Below, piece after piece: positions 8,401 to 63,060 of a stretch of DNA of 64,000 nucleotides. Both the position numbers and the translations under genes were made by a program. Origin of the DNA: Branchiostoma floridae (Eukaryota > Chordata > Leptocardii > Amphioxiformes > Branchiostomatidae). Where the stretch lies: NCBI RefSeq assembly GCF_000003815.2, contig NC_049994.1, positions 11,438,950 to 11,502,949 of the forward strand, read 5' to 3'. A model generated the notes under the pieces. It did not search any database and was not told the origin of the DNA. It worked only from the letters and a program-made list of their open reading frames with translations. Every line of letters starts with the position of its first letter. Positions within the stretch are counted from its first letter, which is position 1.

Positions 8401-11400
8401 AAGCTAAGATGGTTCATTATTTTTAAATATATATCAAACAAGTCATAGCTAGAGAATCAGTGGTTCAACCAGTTTTTCTAAGCTTTACTTATATTGAATT
8501 GTTCTGCCAGTTCATTCTAGTGATGCTGAAGAAGAGTGATGGGGTCACTCGAAATGGCCGGAAGTAAATCTCAGTTTTGTATCCACTGTAACAGTTGTAG
8601 AGATTGAATTGTATCTGAATGAAATTCTATTAAATCTAAACATCACCAGAGTCTAATATCAACTTCTACATACAACACTGGTCACTTTCAATCTAAAAAG
8701 TCACTTTCTAAACGAAGACCTCATCCCAAATTTTTATTTATTTCAATGTTGCTTTGGTCATCGGTCAGCCGGATCTTTGGAGTAGTTTTGGAGCATTTTA
8801 AGAGTATTTTGATAAACCTCACTAGTATGTAACAAACTGATCACAAACCAGTAAGTTCAAATATATGTCAAGATTCAGTCAATCAAACTAAGCCCTTGCA
8901 CTTACCTGACAGCCCGTTTGGAGGCAGTTGAGATGGGAGTGGTGGGAGCACTCTTGGTGGAGCTTGGGGTGGAACTGGAGTTGGATATTGAATGTGACCT
9001 TGGATGGGGTGGAGGTAAACTCTGAAGAGACAAAGGAATAGTTATCAACACAGAATCATATGCCGCAAGGGCCCAAAATCACCTTGACCTTCGTCTATAA
9101 ACCTATCTACATACCTATAGTGTCATTACAATCCATTTAGAGGTTCTAAGGTTACATGTTCATTCTCATTTATTTATCGGTAATCACAACAGACCTCAGA
9201 ATGGTTAGGGTAAAATAGAATAGAACTGCATTTTTCCCATTTCTTAGTCAGGTAGTAATTCAAAACCTAATTTGTTTAAATTATCATAATGTCATAAGTT
9301 ACGTTTGTGAAGATTATACATCCAGGAATATAATGAATAGATGAAAGTTGAATCTCTTCTTCTGGATAAATGAAATTTAATTCAGACGTTTCAAACGACA
9401 TCCGTCGTTCTTCTTCAGTGAAATAAAAATAAAAGTTTACAACTCTGCGGAATAAGGANNNNNNNNNNNNNNNNNNNNNNNNNNNNNNNNNNNNNNNNNN
9501 NNNNNNNNNNNNNNNNNNNNNNNNNNNNNNNNNNNNNNNNNNNNNNNNNNNNNNNNNNTTTCATGTATAAGTTGTTCCTATCAAATTTCATGCCATAATG
9601 ACCATAGCAGGGGCATATTTTCTCTTATTCCTATCATAACCTAGTAATAAGTTATTGCTGTCAAATTTCATGCCATAATGACTATAGCAGGGTCGTATTT
9701 TCTCCTATCAGTAATTGTAATCTGAAAACTGTTTTTGAAAATTCAGCCCTCAGTTTTTTCCACAAAGACTCTGGAAAAGGATTGATCGTATCAATGTGAC
9801 CTTCATTATGAATGAAGGATTCCGTGTTAGCTTTGATGACGTCAGGGCCAGTCACGTGGCATACAGTCACCGCGTATCTCCATCCCACATGCTAAGATTC
9901 AATTTACATGCAAATGCCCTGCCTTTAGAACATAGTTAACCCTAATTTTCCAGCACAAGCCATGAGCTTAGTGCTGTGTGTACGGGGACAATCCAGTGTA
10001 GAACTTATTGAGTCAACATTTACATTGACTGAAGTGAAAGCTGGAGATTAACTACAACGAACAACAAGGGAGGGGGGCAGGGAGTGGTCTATTGATTGTT
10101 ATTGTTTTAACCTTGAATGCTACATTTTGTAGATATCCCCTCCCATATGCACACTACCATATTCATAGCATTGTGTTCAACTTTGATCTTCCTTTTCTAC
10201 AACAAAATACTTCAGGCCATTACAAAATGTACATATTGCACAATCTAGTTAACACCCCCTGGGGTGCAATAAAACTGGTGCCATGATACTTCTAAAAATC
10301 CCACAGGTGATCATCATTATTCAAAGGTTATTTCTAAACAACTGGGTACATATCCCAAGGCTGTTTTACAAATGCATTTTCTGACAGTGAGAAAAAATTT
10401 ACGACTCAAGTGCAAAAACGTTTCCATGTACACGTGCGCTGCTTAGAAACATTAGTGCAGGCAGTCGGAACAAAATTGGGTAGTCCATTATGGTAGACTC
10501 TTTATCCATCAGTATGGTCCTAAATTGAATTCTCTTGGAGAATACATAATGAATAAGAAAGAAGAATGTTTTAGGAAAAAATACCTACTTTTTTTAACTG
10601 GATGCTACTTCAGCACCAAGGACAGATCTTGTTTGTCTATCCAGTGTAACAGTCAATTATGTGCCCCTGACCAGAATTACCCAGTGTATTCTGGCCATGG
10701 GCCTTTTGAAGGAGAAGAGTGTTTGAAGACAAAAATAACTGCTTTCTAGATCCTGTTGCCACATCAGCACCGAGGACAGATCTTGTTTGTCTACCCAGTG
10801 TAACAGTCAACTGTGGGCCCCCGATGAGAATATCCTGATGTATTCTGGCCATGGGTGTGTTCTGGGTTTTTTTTTTTTGAAGAAGAATGTTTGAGGACAA
10901 AAATATCTGCTTTCTAGATCCTGTTGCCACATCAGCACCAAGGACAGATCTTGTTTGTCTATCCAGTGTAACAGTCAATTATGTGCCCCTGACCAGAATT
11001 ACCCAGTGTATTCTGGCCATGGGCCTTTTGAAGGAGAAGAGTGTTTGAAGACAAAAATAACTGCTTTCTAGGACTGGTTGCTACTTCAGAACCAAGGACA
11101 GATCTTGTTTGTCTACCCAGTGTAACAGGCCATAATGTGCCCCTGACCAGAATTACCCAGTGTATTCTGGCCTCTTAAAGAAAAATGTTTGAAGACAAAA
11201 ATATCTGCTTTCAATATAGACCCGTTTGCCACTTCAGCACCAAGGACAGATCTTGTTTGTCTACAGAGCGTAACAGGCCATAATGGGCCCTTGATAAGAA
11301 TATTTTGATGTATTCTGGCCATAGCTGTGTTCTAGCCTTTTGAAGAAGAATATTTGAAGAAAAAACATATCTGCTTTCTAGTTCTAGTTGCTACTTCAGC

Positions 11401-14400
11401 ACCAAGGACAGTCCTTGTTTGTCTCAATAATAGAATATCCCTGGGTGTATTCTGGCCAGGAATGTGTTCTTGCCTGTTATATATATATTTCAAAATGTAC
11501 AATTTGGCGATCTTTCTTTAGGTACAATAACCTTTCTTGACTGCTCGGTTATCATTTTGCCAATTTCTGTATCATGTAATGTGACATCATCCTTTCCTTT
11601 CACTATTTGCTATATTTTGGTTCTAATAATCTCAAGAAATCACTAGGAAATATTCCATTCCCCCACTGAATTGTCCCCATGGTATGGCATCTTAAGTTGG
11701 GGTCCATTATATTTTTCCGTTCACTTTTAGATGATCTTGATTAATGTAGTACGTGGGAGTACATGTAGGTACAAAAGCCTAGATGGATAACATCAGACTG
11801 CACTTAACAGGAAGACATTTGTATCCGCTGAAATGTCGAGAAAGTAAGGAATCCCCCAAGGCAGCGTAACATAAAACTTGTTATGACAGATATATCAGAT
11901 GCATGCATTTTCAAAGTCTTTCAGAATCAGATATACATGTTTGTTTGTTTTTTACCTTTATTTATTCATGTACAGAATACATCTCTTACAATATTGATGT
12001 GCAGTCTCTACAATCTTCAAAATATGTACATTAAAGATGTGACAGACTGCACATACATATTGTAGTATGAAGTTGCAACAGACTGCACATACATATTGTA
12101 GTATGAAGACATCCCCAGGGCCTTTTCTGAGAAAAGGATTGAGAGGAAAATACTGAAGGCATAAAAGGAAAATGCAAAAGTGAGAGGGAGTGCACAGAAG
12201 GGGGGGGGGGGGGAGATATATTTAAAATGCTCCTGTTGTTTAATGTAAGAAGAGAAATTTGGTGAGTAAATATTACTACAGTAACTGCAGTTGCCTTCAT
12301 TTCTTTACACTGATGATTCTAAATAATTGTGGATTCATGTTGTGAATATTACCAATAAAAGACTGTTACCCATACATGTAGGTACATCATTTTTGTACGA
12401 TACAAATAAAAGGGGTACTTTATGTATAATGTCTCCCGATACTAGTAATAGGCACATGTGTGGGATTAGATTACAAAGGCTTTTCCAAGAATTGACGATG
12501 GATAGAGAGGGTTATCTTCCCAACATCTGTGTCTCCAGCAATCATAAGGAAGATACGGTGAGGATAAGGATGTCACAATGGTTACCATGGCAACTGATAT
12601 GACGTCTTTGACACTAGGTCACTGACCGGCCATACGGTGATATAGCAGCATGAGACAATGTTTTTTCTGGGTCGACTATTCTAGTCAAACAAGGGACACA
12701 GACTCATCAGTGATGAAATAAATGTACTGAGCTATTACACCCTTCATAATAAATATTGACCTACAAACGTACTAGAATATGAAATAGAGGTTAGATGAAT
12801 GAAACAAGCTCATTAGGGATGTTTGATATCTTACAAGCAATTAGTAAATGCTTGTATGTACAATGAAACCATCCCTTCTAGTTTACTGTACCCTCTTACC
12901 ATCAGGGTCCATTTTACTCATTTAAAAGACAAAGACAGTCAAAGGCAGATTTAGTAGTGCTTTGGGGCCATTCTAAGTCCCCCAGACAAAAAGAACAGCG
13001 ATATATAGAATTCTGCTGCCTTGGTGTAAACTAGGAAATATAGAAACATAACAGAAAAGCTCAAACATTACTTCATTCCCTTGGGTGTGATAAAAATAAT
13101 TCTGCCTACCTGAGCCAACGTTTCTGTGTGATATTGAGCAACTGAGCGCAGTCGATTCACCCACTGCTGCCGCTCTTTAGCATCAAATGCTGCAAAACAA
13201 AGGAAAGTCAGTCAACAAAAATAAAGGGCACATTTTTTGTCAAAAATTGTTGCAAACATTTGACAGAAAATGGTAATTTTTCACCATTAATACAAAAATG
13301 ACTCCTCTCTATAGTGACCACATGCCTACAATTAGACAATGATTCTAATTGAGTATCAGCCCCCTACATGGTCTTATTGAGCATGTTTGACTATACAACG
13401 GTTACCGTTTAAATATATAAAGAACAAAACAAACACATAATACTTCTTCTTACCGATACAACACCCAGAGGTTGTGCTTAATACTGGGAGGACCAGACTG
13501 TTATGCCTGCACATTTGCACGTACGTATACCCACGCATCCCAGCGCAACTCAGGGCTGATTATTAGTCATGACACTTAACGTTATGATTCGTGGCTTGTG
13601 GGTTCTCCCTGCAACTTAGCTAAATATAGTGGCAACCCACTGAGGCAGATACAAAAGTGCTATCACTTATCATGATCATAATAATTACAACAGACTACAG
13701 GTACAATTTGAGTCTCGCGGAACCAATCTACCCTCATAAATGCTTAGGAAGGATTTTTATCGTCTGAATCTGATGTGAGAGTGTAATAAAAAAAATAAAT
13801 TTGGGTCATTTCTGTAATTTCATATAATGTGACCTTTTTAAAGTTTTATAACCATTAATTATAACTTACATAAATTAGCTATTTTTTGGTATGTTAAAAA
13901 TGGAAATGCTGTTGTTTAGGGCAAGAAATAATTATGATAATAGCAGTTACGATATATGAACTTAATATACATCATAACTGGCATGAATTGTAAATATGCA
14001 GGGCTGGCTATTCCATACAATATCTAACACCAATAAAGTTCATCCATGCTTTCAGCTATCTTTGCCACAAACAACTTGTCAGTCATCGTTAATAATATCT
14101 AGAATGACTTCACCCAAAAAGAATTCTAAAAAAATTTGTAATATTCCTTAGACATATCTGAGGCAAATTTATGATGCTAAAAACTTGTCCTGTAACTATA
14201 ACTAGAAGGAGAAATTTGAGCAAAGAGCCTGGCAAATACTCAATACCAGCAAAATACATTTCCTTAGAGCCTCCTTCAGTGGCAGGATTTATAAAGATTC
14301 CTCCCTCACGACTCCCTTCTGCTGCCCTCTATACGGTGTGAAACACTTCTGCCATGGTCGTATCATCCATCATCTCCCTGGTTACCATGGTAACTAATCG

Positions 14401-23410: not shown

Positions 23411-26400
23411 ATGTCTGCACCGAAGAAAATAGCGATTATCGGCTCTGGAAACTGGTAAGTTTTTAAGATGAACAAATTTTGGGTTTGCCCGGCGCGCCCC
23501 CAACTTTGGCCTACTTTAACTCGCAAATGATGTAACTTCTTTTAACGTTAAAACACTCTAACTGATCAGAAGGGAAATGAGAAAGCAAAACGTTTGTATT
23601 TATTTTGTATAGAATATACTAACTGGTCAGCAGCAACGTTTTATATTTGACCTACTTTTCCATGACCTTGCAATGACACGCACTCTTAGTATTAGTCTAT
23701 AGAGCTTTAAAAGACCTCCCAAACTTTTCTTTCTTCTCTGTTTGGACGACCCACATTTCTTGACAGTTTGCCGCTCAACATTTTAAATGTTGCGCGTCTT
23801 TCTGGGCTCGAATTCTCGTTGCTTTTAAACCTATAAGGAAGGGGGAGGGGCCGGCCCAAATGCAGTTTTCTAACCTGTGACCTACGCTCAGTTTTGGCAC
23901 GCTACCCCAAGTTGGGATCACCTCCCTGCATTCTACAGGACACTGTTATCCAATTAACGCAACGGGAATAATAGTGTTAAAAATATCTCGAGGTTACGAC
24001 GAACGAACAGATCTAAAAATGCCCAGCGTTACTTGAGTAGCAGACAACCCCAGTGTTTATTCAGCATCAGATTAGACAATTGTTGCAGTCCTTTGGGGAT
24101 AACTAGACTTGAAAGATGCCCAAGCGGAGAATTTGCATAGTAGGATGTGGGCAATGGTGAGATGTCATATTTTTTAGAGGCAGATTTCTTGATTGTTTTG
24201 TAGCTGTTACTTCAAATAACTATTTTCACCCCACAATCATGGCAGTGAAATACAATTTTGTTTGAGGTATGTTTGGCTGTTGTGTGCCCCAGTGTTAAGA
24301 AGTGTCAAATCAATTTGCATGTGCATGGGAAGCCAGACAAAATGTGTGGATAATATAGTTGAGAGCCAAACTCTTAAAGCGATCTAAACATCTTAAGGCC
24401 TAGGAAAAAAAATGTTGTGTTTCCTGTAACAGTCCTGAAAAAATTAGGGTCGGTAGGTAGGGATAATCTTTTTTTTTTTTTTTTTTTTTTTAGACATGGT
24501 ACATGTACCTGGCTTGAAAACTGGCAACACATTGGCCAAAAGCATTATTTCTTAAGCTGGGAACTGTGGTGGTGTCCATGTCAATATCTATCCATACACT
24601 TTGTTACATAGAAATGTACATTTATATTGTATGCTTCTGATGTCATCTTGCCGGCTCATAATCTTCATCTTCTGCTTTAGGGAAAGCTATCACTTATACA
24701 CAGAAGCAAACTAACTCTTATACAAGGATATAAATTGCCAACAAACATTGGGCATAGGTCCCCACTAGGACCCCTTACCGAGGGCCAACAGTCTGCCTTC
24801 AGGCTCAACAAGTGGAACAGTATACACAACTCCAAGTCATGTATTTCCTGCTTGGAACTTGAGGCAAGTTACCATGAAAAATGTAGAAAACATTGGGCAA
24901 AGCATCCTAACTTAACTTTTATCATCTTGATCATGTTAGTTAGAAAAAAAATCAACAACAAATTTTATCTAAGTTTGCCTATAGAAATAAGAATAAAAAC
25001 CTTGCTGGAATTATTGGCTCTCTGAGTTAATAAAAATCTATACAGACTAAATACATTTCATGGTCAACTGGTGCAGATGGAAAAAATTACAAATACTTGC
25101 ACTCCCCCAAAAAATACATGCACAACCAAAAGTACTATACCATAAACCATATATTAATTATCTTTTTTTTGTTACATGTACAATTGTTTGTTAGCAAAAA
25201 ATTAGATGCAATTTGATAAAACCTTGGAAAAACTCACATGCAACATTATTACCAGTACAAGTGCTGTCAAGCCTGCATTTCGCCCCAAATAAGATAGGGG
25301 CGCTGCTGTACATAAAACAAAATGGCGGCTCTCGGTTTGTTTACTTCATTTCGGACGGCTTTTGGGCGGACTTTTTTGCATTTCAGGCGTACCAAAATAG
25401 GTTAATTTTGGAGGTACAATAGTGAAAAAGCATTGTTTGTTTATTGAGTTGTTTGTTTGGGTGCTGATTTCTATGTTTCAGTTGAAAATTTACTGTGTGT
25501 TTGAGCACATGCTCCTGAGCTGAGTCATGCTTCTGAACTTCTACTACGTTTATACGTGTCCATGTGTATCTCATATTTACGATGATTTATGTGTTCCTAA
25601 TTATGTTAACTGTGATGTATGAAGTAAACAGAGGTAATGCAAGTATACAAAAGTAACGGGTTCCGCACTGGTGTTCCAGTGCTGAATCAATGGGTCGAGT
25701 CGGCCTCAGCACTGGTTTTCCAGTGCTGAAGAAACATCAGCACTGGTTTTCCAGTGCTGAACGGCCTTGTTCGAGTGCTGAAGCTCCCTCAGCACTGGAA
25801 TTCCAGTGCTGAACCCAATGCAAGCACTGGATTTCCAGTGCTGAACTTCTCCGAGCACTGGTTTTCCAGTGCTGAACTGTCGTCAGCACTCGGGTACCAG
25901 TGCTGAACTCGCGGCAGAGGTCATTCAGCACTGGTTACCCAGTGCTGAAACCGCCGTCAGCACTGGAACCGAGTGCTGATATACAAAAGTAACGGGTTCA
26001 GCACTGGATTTACCAGTGCTCGGGAACTTTTCAGCACTGGAAGACCAGTGCTGTAAAAACTTCAGCTCTGGGCTTCCAGTGCTGACGTTTATAAAGCACT
26101 GGAACGTTCCAGTGCTGAACGTAATATTCGTGTACTAGTAGCATGCGTCCGTACGGCTGTCTGAGTTATTTACTTTAGACTACACTTAGGTATATCTATG
26201 CGTGTTATTTAATCTCCAAGCAGATCTTGCGTGGCACTAGCTTTTACTAGCTTTAGACTAGAGTAGACACTTGTGATATTGTTAATTGTGTATACAGTTA
26301 ATGGCACTCAAGTTTCTTTTCTTTTGGTCAATTGATACGAAAATTTTAAATCAACAAATCACATATTCTATACTTGTGGCAAAGTAGTGTCTTTTTAGTC

Positions 26401-29400
26401 AGAGGTAGTTAAACTAACAGTTGGTCTATGTGTGTGGTAAAGAGATCACTTGTTTTTTTTTTACAAAGAATAGGTAGTTACAGGTGGACGACACATTCTG
26501 CTTGTGCGGCAAAGTAGCATCATTTAAAAAACATTGTATAATACAGTTGTCCATTTATATTTTGTTACAGAATGTAAGTTCTTTTCACCAACTTTATACA
26601 TTTTATACTCGGTTTCCAGTGCAGAATATTTGTCAGCACTGGATTTCCAGAGCTGAAATGTCCTCAGCACTGGAAATCCAGTGCTGATTGTAGTCTCAGC
26701 ACTCGGTTTCCAGTGCTGACAGGAGGGCTTCGAGTGCTGAAGCTGCCTCAGCACTGGATTTCCAGTGCTGACGCCGGCTCAGCACTGGACTTCCAGTGCT
26801 GACGACCACTTCAGCACTGGTGTTCCAGTGCTGACAGAGGAGACCGTTACTTTTGTATATTTGCAGAGGTAATTGATGTTATTTTGACTTTTTCTACTGC
26901 ACTAGGAATTAGCAGAACATGTTCAAAAACCGATTTTATATCGATGCATTACTCGAAAGCTCCTTGCACAAATTCTCACATGGAAAATTCATGTCTGCCA
27001 GCCGGCCACCCAAAAAAAAGTCAAGGGTCGGCAGGTTTTTCTAGGGTCGGTCGGGTTACAGGAAACACAACATTTTTTTTCCTAGGCCTAAACTAGATAA
27101 TTGTGTCTTCATGAAGTTCATACATTGAATCCAATCTTGAGCTGGTCTAAATTTGAGACATTTTTTCTGCAGAAACTTGTTCTGAGTAAGGACACTTTGT
27201 GCCTTGGTATAGTCTTGCTGGGCCATTGTTGTATGTTCTTTGTATTTGATGACATATTTACATGACAACAATGTGTGATGAGAATTAAGATAGTTGCTTG
27301 GTGCTAAATGCCTTGTTAGGTAGGGTTTTACTTGATCTTTTAATCGTTATTCCTTTATTCATATTGTGAATTGTAGTCTGTCAATGGCTTGGTGTTTGGT
27401 TTCAAGGTAGCTCAATATCATATTTTCTGTTAAATATAAGTTCATATTAACAGTCCAAGGAGCTTTTGATAAAAGCTCCTTGATCAGTCTTAACAAAATT
27501 GTTCAGGTTTTCATATTCACAAAGATGAAGGATATAATCATATATTTAGACGGTCCTCACATTTGGTAACAATGCACCATTTATCTAGTAATGACATTGA
27601 GAACAGACATGAATTTTTCCCTCACTGAAATGATCATTTAACCTTGTTACAATGTCACTGTGTAATTATAAAGCCTAGTTGTCCCTGACACTAGTATACC
27701 AACCTGTTGCTTTTACCATTGTTGATATCAGTATGGTCATACATATGTAGTCTAGTAATTGCCCTTCTGTATGCCAGCTGTGGCACCCTTTATGTGCTTT
27801 GAATGCTAATCAACTCAGTTCTGCCCACCAGCATTCTCAGGTCATATAATATGGGGGCATGTAGCTTTCTCTCTTGAGACTTGAGACTTTACTTGAAAAT
27901 CCATTAGTGGCATGCCCATGGACTTTCAAATAAGCATGTCATGAAATCTACACATTGAAAACAATATGCTAATTGTATTGTGCATTTTGTAATTGTGCAT
28001 GTTGAATTCTCACTAATGACTCTCTCACTAAATATAGCACAATACGTGTTATAGTTAACCAGGCAATGGTTCGCACCCATTAGTAACACTAAGAGGCAAA
28101 AGGCCAAACTAATTAGAAGGTATGGACAAGGCAGTAACATATATCCCCCTTGGTATGGATGACACAAGTATTTTCAAACTTATTTGATTTCTGCTTTAAC
28201 AATACTGCATCCTGTAAAGTTTGTGAAAAGCAAAGTTTCATGCATGCTAAATAGAAACAAATTGCTACAAATGGTCCTAGAAAGACTTTTTTTCAACTGA
28301 GTGCAAGATGAGAGGATATGCACATGTTGCAAAAGTACTAAAACTGTCAAATCACCCTACATTTTGTCCTTCAATTGTTGAAAAAAATGGCTTAGAAATT
28401 GCTGTTGATAAGTTGTTGATGGAGATTTCCTGTCCCTTTCCCAGGGGTTCCGCCATCGGGAAGATTATCGGCAAGAATGCGGCCAACCTGGACCAGTTTG
28501 AGACGCAGGTGAACATGTGGGTGTTTGAGGAGATGGTCGACGGCAGGAAACTGACAGAAATCATCAACACAGACCACGAGAACGTCAAGTACCTGCCTGG
28601 ACACAAACTTCCCGAGAATATCGTACGTATGACTTTTCATCTCTCACTGTCTTACCGTTCTGTCTTTCTTTTATTTCTATGACCCTTTATTCCCTCTCTC
28701 TTTATCATTTTCCCCTCTCTCCCAGTCTCTGTATCATTTTACAATAAATATATCATTTGATATGTTGCCTTTTCTGTAGCTAATTAGTAAACTTGTAAGT
28801 TGTAGCAGCCTCACAGTTGAGCTCCTAGTTCCAATTAGTTGGAGAAAATTAACAGATTTTACCAACAGATTATCACACGTTTTGGGGCTTACAGGTCCTC
28901 GAAAATAACAAGAGATAACTAAAGGGGAGTTGGTAGTCATTTCTACTATGTTTCCACAATTAAACTTGGTCTTAGTTAACAGAGGCATTAGTGTTGTTTA
29001 CATTAAGATAGGATTTTAAACGCCAGTAGAAGTCGGATACTCCACCAAACAGATTCCTTTGTAGTGAAATGGACTATTGTTTTGACTATTGTCCATTCAC
29101 AAGTTTTCAAGTACAATTAGGTCCAGTTTCAGGTTCGGCCTGGTCCTCTGGACTTGGACTATACCTGGACCCAAATTTTCTGTACAACTACAGGTACCCA
29201 TCTCTAATCTCCATGTATCTCCCCAGGTTGCTATCCCTGACGTGGTGGAGGCGTGCATGTCCGCAGACATCCATGTGTGGGTGCTGCCTCACCAGTTTGT
29301 CAGGGGAGTGTGTCAAAAACTCAAGGGGAACATCAAACCTGATGCCGTCGCACTGTCTCTCATCAAGGTAATAAAGTTCAATGATACTGTAAATCATAGA

Positions 29401-36127: not shown

Positions 36128-38347
36128 TCACATGTATCTGTACTTCCTGACACAGTGATCAGCATAGTCCACTACAAACACATGTCCATCCTCTGTCACA
36201 GCCACCCCGTGGGGCTTGTTCAGTCTGTCCCCATCACTACTAATGGTGGACACCCAAGTCCCGTCTAAGCGAAATACCTGAAGCTTTTTACCATGTTCTA
36301 CGCCACATGAGTCAGACTTATCCCCCACGTTGGCCAAAACTATGTTCCCCCTGTTGTCAGCTGACACCCCTGTAGGGCCCCACACGTTATGTGACTGTCT
36401 ACCATGCACTCCAAACTTATTTAGAAAATTCAGACAGACATCAAAGATTTGAACACAGTTCTGAAGTGTATCTGACACAACGATGTTACTCTCATTATCC
36501 ACACAGACAAAAGATATGGAGTTGAATTTCTGGGCCTTCAACAGCTCCTGGTGACCTCCCACCTGTTTCACCAGTGTCCCATCTGCTTCGGCGAACAGAA
36601 AAATGTTCTGGTCAAAATCAACTACAACAACTCCCCCGTCCGTCTGTACAGCAAGACTAATGATGCTAGTGCAATGTCCCTCCAGATCTAATTTTTTCAG
36701 CAGATCTCCTGACGGTGAAAATTTCATCACTTCACCTCCACACAGCACCACTACGGTGCCATCAGTCTGAATTACGACTGATTCTGGGTTCGAAGTTGTC
36801 AAAAATGAGGAACAAAACGTCCCATTCAGATCGAACACCTGGACACGCTTGTTGAACGTGTCAGCCACATACAGCCTATCCCCCCAGACTGCTACATCCA
36901 AAGGTCTGTCAAACTGCCCCTGTTGGCTGCCCTTTTCCCCAAACGTCAGTACAGGGTTGTTGCTGCCCACTTCTACAATTAGCGGAGACCACACACCCTT
37001 TCCTGATGTCCTACCCCACCCCCGTTTCCCCCCTTCCCTTGTAGACTCACCCCCTCCCCCCGTAGCCACCCCCACCACATGCCTCCCCGATGTCTGTGGT
37101 CTCCAGACAGCTTCGAATACCCCCTCGCTGATTTTGATGGTTTCCAGGGTGACACACTGTCCCCCAGGGGAGGTGACTTTGACTTGAGGTGTTCCCTGAA
37201 CTTGACCTTTCTGTGGCCGGAAGACTACCGTGGTCGGCAGACTTTCTACCGGTGAATCTGTGATGACAAGGGGCTTACAACTGAGTTCTAACTCACACTT
37301 CATATCAGTGTTATGCTGGTTGAACGTTATGTATTTCTTTAGTGCTTCACGCTTTACCTGCTTTGCAGTTAGGACTTTAAGCCTGTCTTCAAGTTGCTGC
37401 CCAAGGGCTATAACCTCTACATCATTGTTTCTAGCAAGGACATCTGTACAGAACTGAAGTCCATCTTCAGTACATCTTAGATTTTCTTCAAAAGTTTCCT
37501 TTTCTTTTACCAGCGGCTCTTTCTGTGTCTTCTCCATTTCCTCAAGTTTGTCCACTACGTCCATCTCTGCCTTCTCCACTTTTGACTTCAGTTGTGCAAA
37601 ATGTTCCTGGATTTTCGTCTTCTCCACTTGACAGTTTGTTGCGATGCTTGACAGTTCTTTCCCAATGGTGTAACTCGCGTTCCTCAAGGCGTCGGCGGTG
37701 TCCAAAGTTTTCTGCACCAACGTCTGTAGCTCGTCCTTATACTTCTGTGCGACATCTCCTATCTCCCGCGGGTTATGTTTGCGCCCCTGCCGGTGTTCGG
37801 TGATTGTGCACTCTCGGCACACGAGCTTTGCGCAGGGCTGGCAGTAGAACGTCATGCGCACACCTGTGTGTTTGGCACAGTACTCCGCGCCGTTTTACTT
37901 TGACCTGCTGTTGGGGTCCTCCAGATCATGCAGGGTGATGATGTAATGGTCTTTCAGGGCGGGAGAGTTACCATGTGCAGCGAAACAGTTTTCACATAAG
38001 AGAAGTTTACAGTCTACACATATGCTCTCTACCCTGGCTTCCGACTCACACATCTGGCAGCTGGTTTCTTCTCTAGTACTGTTGTTCAGTGCCCAGAAGT
38101 TCAGCAGTATCTTGATGTAGACATTAGAAGGAAGACTGTTAACCGAAAATTCACTCTTTAGCGTCACCTGGTGTTGACAGGTAGGGCAGGTGAACTGGCT
38201 ATCTCCTGTCCGTCGCCGATCAAGACACTTGGCGCAGAAGGTGTGAAGACACGGCAAGAGTCGTGGGTCGTCGTAGATGCCCTTGCAGACAAAACACTTG
38301 AGGGACTCACCGGCAAACTCTTCTTGTATACCTTCTGCAGAAGCCAT
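36128..38347 (-). CDS. TRIM-NHL E3 ubiquitin ligase with one in-frame stop
   Basis: An intronless TRIM2/TRIM3-type gene, 739 codons from ATG 38347 (family about 745). The N-terminal part has a RING finger (CFVCKGIYDDPRLLPCLHTF, CAKC, CPTC) and a first B-box (CQMC, CVDC, CENC). Then, on the same frame, TAA at 37895-37897 interrupts DPNSRSK and NGAEYC. The frame continues through the second B-box (CQPCAKLVCRECTITEHRQG), a coiled coil, a filamin-type domain (VKVTSPGGQCV) and NHL repeats (LDVAVWGDRLYVADTFNKRV, GVAVTEDGHVFVVDYADHCV), ending VRKYRYM. Because 578 codons after the stop are intact, it is either a very young null allele, a sequence error or readthrough. An upstream in-frame ATG at 38389 is possible but gives an unusual leader. 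NHL proteins often bind RNA or cargo. Confidence 0.85.
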
Positions 38348-39392
38348 GAGTGTTCTTACACTACGTTCACTGAAACTGAGAGCCAACAAACCACACAGAT
38401 TCTACACAAACACAAAGTACAGCCTAAACGGAAAGGACCAGTACTAAATTGATGTCTGTGTTCGATCTGCGATAAGAGTCTGTCAATGATTGGTTCAAAG
38501 AAAAAGTATGCAAACATTTTATTTGACTAATGATACACAGTGCGTAGGGCCTTTGACTCTATACATTGACAAGGCCAAAGACCATTTGTGAAAGGTAATT
38601 ATAAAGGTAGCGCCATCGCCTTTTTTTCGAGGCAGCAAGGGCAGAGGGCACTTTGTCTGGGGATCAATATTGGAAAGTGGAGAACATCCCTGTCCTGCCC
38701 CCCCGAAAAAAAAAAACGTTACGAAGTTAGGTATTCTTTTTACACCTAGGTTACATGAAAAAGGCCGAGGACATAATGTCTAACTGTAAAACCATTTAGC
38801 GAAGAATGCGGGCCGTTGACCAGTTTTTAATTTACTAGTTATTCCTTTACTGTTAAGCTCATGTTTTTAAATTCATAGTATGAATACGTATATCACTGCA
38901 TATCTCAAACCCCAATACATGATAAACATCATTTTGAATATTTATTTAGTTACAAAGATAATAAAGAAAACGTCGAGGCCTTATTTTGTGGTGTTTTTTT
39001 TTTGTCTGAACATGTATGTCCTTGCTTGTGTTGTTGGATAAGATGCCATAACGGTAACATCAACTCTTTTTCGACCATTTGTGCTTGACTGTTCTCGGAA
39101 AGTCCAAAATGATTTTGCATAAAAATCTCACAACGAGGTAACACCGGTGGGTAAGGGTAAATAATTGTTCCATCACAATTATCAAACGAAGGCCACAAAG
39201 GTGAAGAGTAAAGATTGTTCCATATACAAGAGTTTTCGTGATTGTCTCGTAGTGTTCTAGAACGGCATTTACACAGTGTTGTAGCGTCGCTATGGAACAG
39301 TATCCAAACACAACTACACAGCTGAGGATGCCATTAGTGCAAGTCTCAAGCGTCTCGTTGTGTACAGATAGATTTTGATCCCGTTTGACACC
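38348..39392. promoter_or_regulatory. Divergent promoter region, TRIM / C2-like gene
   Basis: The two start codons are 1.05 kb apart and point outward. The stretch contains a CCCCCC-then-A run at 38700-38715 and otherwise AT-rich sequence with no exon signal. TSSs for both genes should lie near the edges. I see no clear TATA or CRE element. Confidence 0.45.
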
Positions 39393-62244: not shown

Positions 62245-63060
62245 TTATGTTTTGAGCTTGTTGTTGCGGGCTTGTCGGAAGATATAGGCACCACAGTTTC
62301 ACGGTTTGTTTGTAACAAGGACAACAAAACAACAACAATGAGATGGTTGTTTATTATGCGATTTTGATGTGTTAACGGTGCTGTGGCATATTGTGAACTT
62401 GTTGTGACGGACTTGTCGGAAAGACATGTAGGGACGACAGCCGCACAACAGATGATTAGTCGGTTTTAAGGAAGGACAACAAAAGAACAACAACAATGGC
62501 CATGGGATGGTGGTTTTATATGCGATTTTGATGTGTTAACGATGCTGTGGAATATGTGAACTTGCTGTGACGGACTTGTCGGAAAGACATGTAGGGACGA
62601 CAGCCGCACAACAGATGATTAGTCTGTTTTAAACAAGGACAATAAAACAACAACAATGGGATGGTGGTAACGATGCTGTGGAACGTTGTGAACTTGTTGT
62701 GACGGACTTGTCGGAAAGACCAGTAGGGACGACAGCCGCACAGCAGATGATTAGTCTGTTTTAAACAAGGACAACAAAACAACAACAATGGGATGGTGGT
62801 AACGATGCTGTGGAACGTTGTGAACTTGTTGTGACGGACTTGTCGGAAAGACATGTAGGGACGACAGCCGCACAACAGATGATTAGTCTGTTTTAAACAA
62901 AGACAACAAAACAACAACAATGGGATGGTGGTTTTATATGCGATCTTGATGTGTTAACGATGCTGTTTAATGTTGTGAGCTTTGTGGACTTGTGGACTTG
63001 TCGGAAAGACATTCCATAGTAGCGACGACAGCCGCACAACAATGATGGTCAGTCAGTGTT
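62245..63060. repeat. Minisatellite, 132-163 bp unit, about six copies
   Basis: The unit runs GACGGACTTGTCGGAAAGAC, GGGACGACAGCCGCACAACA, GATGATTAGTCTGTTTTAAA, then CAAAACAACAACAATGGGAT. GATGATTAGT recurs at about 62451, 62614, 62746 and 62878, with degenerate copies at both ends (62245 and 63000). Some units carry an extra 31-bp GGTTTTATATGCGATTTTGA block, explaining the 163 versus 132 bp periods. Minus-strand frames across it (62299-62920) are repeat by-products. Confidence 0.9.

Follow-up and report, generated by a model that had tools for sequence, protein, structure and literature searches.

Within a 64,000-nucleotide stretch of the Branchiostoma floridae genome (NC_049994.1, positions 11,438,950 to 11,502,949 of the forward strand; hereafter, the window), positions 25639-26864 are a non-autonomous DNA transposon of 1,226 bp, in which arrays of a 22-bp palindrome adjoin the terminal repeats at both ends. 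We read it, with a probability of about 0.7, as a Foldback-type cut-and-paste element that is moved in trans and whose palindromes are predicted sites for a dimeric transposase on one face of the DNA helix. Comparison of its genomic copies indicates that successful lineages preserve the palindrome arms and that settled copies mutate these arms nearly like the spacers between them.

The palindromic element and its genomic family

Based on a search of the window with the pattern CAGCACTGG-4-CCAGTGCTG, we found 16 matches at no more than 3 mismatches, against a chance expectation of 0.01 and a highest count of 1 in 100 shuffles. All of them lie inside the interval 25638-26865, in which a first-pass annotation, made from the sequence letters, had placed a transposon; the element stands, with boundaries one base narrower on each side. 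Elsewhere in the window, a single match occurs at exactly 5 mismatches and none is better. Allowing at most 1 mismatch per 9-bp arm, the window copy contains 19 left-type (CAGCACTGG) and 22 right-type (CCAGTGCTG) half-sites, which pair into 19 palindromes, 16 with a 4-nt centre and one each with centres of 3, 5 and 6 nt, and leave three lone half-sites, at 25772, 26616 and 26731. This agrees with the approximately 19 copies counted in the annotation, as does its contrast between near-invariant arms (mean identity of 95%) and variable centres (48%, from the 16 units with a 4-nt centre) and spacers (32%, from nine regular ones). The spacers, given there as 7-14 nt, are usually 9-10 nt long, reach 20-22 nt at three places, and twice a lone half-site follows the preceding arm after 12 nt. 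The arrays do adjoin the terminal repeats and are absent from the middle, which measures 498 bp between the outermost half-sites of both arrays instead of 480 bp. The inner terminal core (25980-25995) and the perfect 9-bp target duplication AGAGGTAAT had been missed.

Read in direct orientation, a segment of the right array aligns with the left one at 86%, which suits a symmetric site. The arrays also yield long imperfect inverted matches, such as 74 nt at 77%; the exact terminal repeat is only 21 bp. Among viral contigs, one stretch carries the palindrome. The arm TTCAGCAC(TGG) resembles the vertebrate RE1/NRSF site in its left half (TTCAGCACC), a likeness that we take to be probably a coincidence.

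To place the window copy in a family, its own genome (513.4 Mb, 431 contigs) was searched for the termini and the copies were aligned, as the annotation had proposed. The 16-bp terminal core has 209 exact matches, 100 of which were listed by place, compared with 2 for a reversed-pattern control, and a 25-base left-end pattern has at least 100 matches at up to 2 mismatches (control, 0); the family terminal pattern is GCAARTATACAAAAGTA[AG]CGG. We estimate that the 209 cores represent approximately 70 elements. Forty stretches were fetched, two of which were joined into one copy, giving 40 sequences with the window copy included; 30 of these are two-ended, and the 10 without one end were left out. 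Target duplications, at unrelated sequences, are 9/9 in 20 of the 30 and 8/9 in one more, and 26 of the 30 share the same layout of palindrome arrays with an inner terminal core at the left, 302-464 bp from the end (209 bp in one copy). Recurrent termini, a common layout and duplications of 8/9 or 9/9 in 21 of 30 copies thus support the transposon-end interpretation first offered. The four copies without an inner core (L040, L046, L063 and L067) are 190-650 bp long. The inner core gives the element a direction, two cores at the left and one at the right, and by convention the end with two cores is called left.

The shortest of the 30 copies measures 190 bp and the longest 9.9 kb, and the number of palindromes at both ends varies between copies in whole units. 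Further copies with 9/9 duplications measure 2,582 bp (TTATTAGAC), 7,773 bp (CTAGGTGTT), 360, 444 and 314 bp; the perfect duplication of the 9.9-kb copy means less, since that copy sits in a simple repeat. The 314-bp copy is inserted in a reverse-transcriptase-like gene, with gene and copy found together at three places. Its removal in silico, along with one duplication, leaves a stretch of 134 amino acids open in a frame that previously had 56; another frame of the filled sequence, with the copy present, has 154. Over their left 560 bp, eight copies of the 336-bp class diverge from their majority sequence by 0-2.0% (mean of about 1%), and most target duplications are still perfect; judged by these sequences, the family looks young.

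Matches with 2 mismatches to the core revealed sister families in which AGTAGCGG replaces AGTAACGG (L072, L074 and L075 on C1, C6 and C7; L073, L076 and L077 on C15, C14 and C152). Palindromes are recognisable at several loci of the sister family with core AGTAGCGG, good in some and decayed in others, and its copies are as short as 107 bp. Additionally, 14 among the 100 left-end matches listed, including L044, begin left-like (GCAAG) and continue with a right-like GGTCTC, two of them 205 bp apart on C229; these may be hybrid or rearranged ends. As for the middles, that of the window copy holds two related 35-mers 130 bp apart (26361-26525), and many copies (L034, L035, L042, L053, L055 and L068) have a second tandem repeat of about 140 bp whose number varies, as seen from repeated BLAST offsets.

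Selection on the arms and helical spacing

The palindrome had been described in the annotation as being kept, and the copies allow this to be assessed. The left 130 bp, the inner-core region and the right 240 bp were aligned in 25 of the 30 elements (the four copies without an inner core and L051j were omitted), and columns filled in fewer than 85% of the rows were skipped. A minor letter present in one or two copies was scored as a private variant and taken as mostly a post-insertion change; one present in at least three copies was scored as shared and taken as separating subfamilies. The arms (244 columns) have 66 private and 5 shared variable columns, whereas the spacers and centres (257 columns) have 91 and 53, respectively (Fisher p = 1.3e-6 for shared:private; counted per column, p = 9e-12 for shared and 0.054 for private variants). 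The arms therefore mutate privately approximately as the spacers do but carry few subfamily-shared changes, which argues that selection has kept them, as the annotation had it. By region, the shared:private contrast gives p = 7e-5 in the inner-core region and p = 0.027 at the right end. The terminal cores (48 columns) show 3 private and no shared variants. An earlier test on eight left ends of one class gave 16 variable of 243 columns in the arms and 20 of 224 in the spacers, with variants shared by at least two copies numbering 0 and 1, respectively; on 26 right ends, shared variants occupied 4 of 100 arm columns and 21 of 73 spacer columns.

The position of the half-sites is regular as well. 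In the window copy, half-sites of one type per array have a best period of 10.4-10.5 bp (scan of 8-60 bp), with a mean vector length of 0.92-0.98. When the test was extended to the 26 two-ended elements with an inner core, the best period (scan of 8-20 bp) was 10.4-10.6 bp for 51 of 52 left and 49 of 51 right site sets, the other three peaking at 15.6 bp. The interval classes found in at least three elements are 21, 31-33, 41-44, 52 and 62-63 bp, near 2, 3, 4, 5 and 6 turns of 10.5 bp, whereas the classes limited to one or two elements are more dispersed, lying on average 2.0 bp off a whole turn (0.7 bp for the recurrent classes). In 25 of the 26 elements, a lone half-site lies 21 bp from its neighbour, and the four odd intervals of the window copy (44, 21, 42 and 43 bp) fit 10.5 bp with p of about 0.006 under a uniform null. 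Phasing is likely, although not proven to be functional.

Table 1. Features of the window copy (positions in the window)
Feature	Position	Strand	Remarks
Whole element	25639..26864	+	1,226 bp; inverted termini, 9-bp target duplication and 209 exact genomic core copies
Left target-site duplication AGAGGTAAT	25630..25638	.	Identical to 26865-26873
Right target-site duplication AGAGGTAAT	26865..26873	.	Identical to 25630-25638
Left terminal inverted repeat GCAAGTATACAAAAGTAACGG	25639..25659	+	21 bp
Right terminal inverted repeat	26844..26864	-	GCAAATATACAAAAGTAACGG on the - strand; one difference from the left repeat
Inner copy of terminal core TATACAAAAGTAACGG	25980..25995	+	Within the left array; 336 bp inward of the outer core
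Left array	25663..26117	.	13 palindromes and lone half-site 25772-25780
Right array	26616..26833	.	6 palindromes and lone half-sites 26616-26624 and 26731-26739
Middle	26118..26615	.	Without palindromes; several other copies have similar middles

Outside the element, the window holds two adjoining open frames of 588 and 168 amino acids on the - strand (36128-38401), which by eye resemble a TRIM-type gene with NHL repeats. Tandem repeats at 62338-62932 (163/132-bp units) and at 10559-11424 (154/322-bp units) are unrelated to the element as far as seen.

Proposed mechanism and competing explanations

The palindromes are most likely putative transposase sites, each of which would bind a protein dimer with one 9-bp arm per subunit. 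The usual distance between successive sites is 3 turns, and 2, 4, 5 or 6 turns occur as variants; the dimers would therefore lie on one face of the helix and could stack into a multimer at each end. Such a multimer would provide specificity and affinity and would draw the terminal cores into a paired-end complex, to be cut at the cores and then integrated at a target opened with a 9-bp stagger. As for the inner terminal core, it might offer one more site for binding, or it might be left over from a duplication of the end and have been retained for its function. The arrays would gain and lose whole units, probably via unequal exchange between arms. In this scheme, the ends, the target duplications, the preservation of the arms and the recurrent spacings near whole turns are observed, and we infer the protein, its dimeric state, the stacking and the pairing of ends. 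A more far-reaching version, which we hold as a tentative idea rather than an expectation, is that the ends act as a helical ruler, in which dimer sites placed at whole turns let the transposase or a dedicated accessory protein form a one-sided filament that extends to the terminal cores and brings them together. If so, activity would be adjusted through array length, and the Drosophila FB element, with its 31-bp period, would have arrived at this solution independently.

Selection on the arms and their phasing would look alike for any bound protein. The palindromes could thus bind a host factor or regulator, as an enhancer, silencer or chromatin anchor, with bound copies being more accessible or better transcribed and therefore moving more; that short copies with few palindromes have target duplications is consistent with this. 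Nevertheless, we consider a host factor improbable: the copies are non-coding, so whether they are themselves transcribed should make no difference to movement in trans; 26 of 30 copies share one layout, in which arrays adjoin the terminal repeats at either end; and the rest of the window has no palindrome at up to 5 mismatches, save the one at exactly 5. Binding by a protein is in turn favoured over RNA hairpins by the combination of arm selection, helical phasing and recurrent lone half-sites. Every palindrome can fold, the left array as RNA reaches -288.9 kcal/mol (z = -21), and Rfam gives 21 matches with E of 1 or less, almost all of them to microRNA families (best E of 1.9e-5), as would suit units kept as hairpins of RNA or single-stranded DNA, for example as small-RNA precursors. 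However, any perfect palindrome folds, and since any palindrome array folds strongly, the stability of the left array does not decide the matter. All of the Rfam matches fall below the gathering score of their family (best, 35.9 bits versus 89), half-sites lacking a partner are found at the 21-bp interval in 25 of 26 copies, and whole-turn spacing has no role in a hairpin, which leaves this explanation with a very small share of the probability. Among 84 imperfect distinct arm pairs, poor units included, 67 are changed on one side and 17 have a position changed on both sides, 9 of the 17 having stayed complementary.

To an equally slight degree do we credit an ordinary minisatellite, grown by slippage and unequal exchange, whose arms only look conserved owing to recent copying or homogenisation. 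Unit number does differ between copies by whole units, and Tandem Repeats Finder reports three 31-bp arrays at the element. Yet the units are alike in their arms and not in their spacers (95% versus 32%), and it is implausible that conversion would act on the 9-bp arms only; without selection, arms and spacers would not be expected to differ in their shared:private ratio; and the sister family with core AGTAGCGG keeps recognisable palindromes at several loci.

Several observations weigh against transposase sites selected in phased arrays. Nine of the 30 two-ended copies have no clear target duplication. Very short copies, with one or few palindromes per end, do exist: one of 190 bp has a 9/9 duplication, sister-family copies measure 159 bp (9/9) and 107 bp (8/9), and others measure 141 bp (8/9) and 77 bp (7/9). 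Unless these arose by post-insertion deletion, long arrays may enhance movement without being required for it. The arm contrast is not significant in the left 130 bp alone (p = 0.23), private variants per column are also slightly fewer in the arms (p = 0.054), and the p-values are optimistic because linked columns were counted as independent. Regarding the spacing, 31-bp units that are copied whole keep their own lattice, so that the odd intervals alone are independent evidence. Finally, we recognised among the copies read neither a transposase nor the autonomous relative that the annotation had suggested looking for.

The coding content behind this last result was assessed from open reading frames (ORFs) of at least 90 amino acids in the 30 two-ended elements and from the longest ORF in 39 interior 801-bp pieces from further left ends. 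Fourteen distinct short ORFs gave no significant Pfam match, and the 9.9-kb copy has no ORF above 139 amino acids. Longer frames were judged by eye: those of 828 amino acids in L050 and of 957 and 464 in a copy on C191 resemble genes of long interspersed nuclear elements (LINEs), and those of L084, L087, L105 and L102 resemble pieces of reverse transcriptase. The C191 copy (C191:83850-92350; L135, L102 and L125) spans 7.8 kb and, also by eye, has an apparent nested LINE with its 957- and 464-amino-acid frames on the opposite strand. L044, considered as a possible long copy, has no right end within 3 kb. The middles of L036 and L056 have an antisense open stretch in common, with a sole, non-significant Pfam match (FANCE, E = 0.22), which may be a captured host fragment.

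Relationship to known transposons

The element is probably moved by a Mutator-like transposase encoded elsewhere, and we lean, on the form of its ends and duplications, towards placing the family among the Mutator-like elements (MULEs). Foldback elements of Mutator type are recognised by target duplications of nine bases together with composite ends, which makes this membership probable; here the duplications are 9 bp (8/9 or better in 21 of 30 two-ended copies), and both ends are composite and internally repetitive, with a variable repeat number. Other superfamilies were set aside on the 9-bp duplications, as the P superfamily and hAT have 8 bp (7 bp in Galileo, which is thus shorter than here), Helitrons and Helentrons have no target duplication, and CACTA (En/Spm) elements have 3 bp and CACTA termini in place of GCAA. 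En/Spm-type CACTA elements do have short motifs arrayed subterminally, in both orientations, to which a transposon protein binds; they are like the present element in these arrays and unlike it in duplication and termini. Merlin, which has its own transposase, makes 8-9-bp duplications, in agreement with the 9 bp here, in a comparison of duplication length alone. The Foldback element (FB) of Drosophila melanogaster has 9-bp duplications and end repeats with a 31-bp period, both in common with our element, a likeness by description only; to our knowledge, the FB units are not palindromes. Our literature search met no paper describing the family, and an earlier entry for it, in Repbase or in the description of amphioxus miniature inverted-repeat transposable elements (MITEs; LanceleTn), may exist.

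The finding points to a probable Mutator-like system in amphioxus. In the available parts of a MULE survey, target duplications are given as 8-11 bp, the significance of long, variable ends is listed among the open questions, and MULE transposases are described as not detectable in Branchiostoma floridae, which would make an autonomous element here informative (PMC6446971). In this respect, the family is a natural experiment, with many young copies, a symmetric and recognisable site, varied array lengths and preservation of the arms but not of the spacers, and it makes the idea of a multimer on one face of the helix directly testable. According to the same parts of the survey, Rehavkus has a 9-bp duplication, a minisatellite before its 3' end and a transposase with a PHD finger (PMC6446971); compared on duplication and repeats only, the duplication is common to both, and the repeats of our element adjoin both ends.

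The claim in the first-pass annotation that no described element has this structure was too strong, given the subterminal tandem repeats of Muta1 and Tm1 (PMC5225508, PMC3169594) and the multiple sites of Galileo (PMC3688188), as far as the accessible portions of these papers go; the comparisons that follow draw on the same portions. Muta1 and Muta5 of Aedes aegypti are Mutator-like, with 8-9-bp duplications and a known transposase; both of their ends carry subterminal tandem repeats, nine copies of 12 bp in Muta1 and of 15 bp in Muta5, and their numerous non-autonomous derivatives vary in repeat number and have unrelated middles (PMC5225508). Duplication length, subterminal repeats at both ends and variable repeat number are thus alike, whereas the Muta units are short tandem repeats with 3-4-bp linkers instead of 22-bp palindromes at about 31 bp, and their long symmetric inverted repeats contrast with a 21-bp repeat, arrays that are unlike between ends and an inner core on one side. 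In root-knot nematodes, the Mutator/Foldback element Tm1 also has composite ends with variable repeat number, MITE-like as well as coding members and mostly 9-bp duplications without consensus (PMC3169594). It differs in having a known Phantom-like transposase and a repeat motif of approximately 14 bp, and the portion of that paper available to us mentions neither a palindromic unit nor phasing.

Galileo, a Foldback-like Drosophila element of the P superfamily, has several sites for the DNA-binding domain of its own transposase in its repetitive ends and is therefore a precedent for multiple sites of this kind, differing in its superfamily and its few sites per end (PMC3688188); the word 'palindrome' occurs nowhere in that paper. 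Tetris of Drosophila virilis is likewise a non-autonomous Foldback element in which no transposase was found, with 8-10-bp duplications by whose length it was assigned to Mutator, and its repeats are 220-bp units, unlike those here (PMC4079207, from the accessible text). Plant MULEs with tandem terminal repeats include amplified non-autonomous elements in which the outer terminal repeat is followed inwards by additional copies of it; their long terminal repeats are usually duplicated at both ends, whereas in our element the core alone is duplicated, at one end (PMC3310237, in the part available). The combination of a palindromic repeat unit, turn-quantised spacing and a sequence test of selection was not met in the literature searched, insofar as the texts were accessible, and palindromic units with turn-quantised spacing look new among Foldback-type Mutator-like elements.

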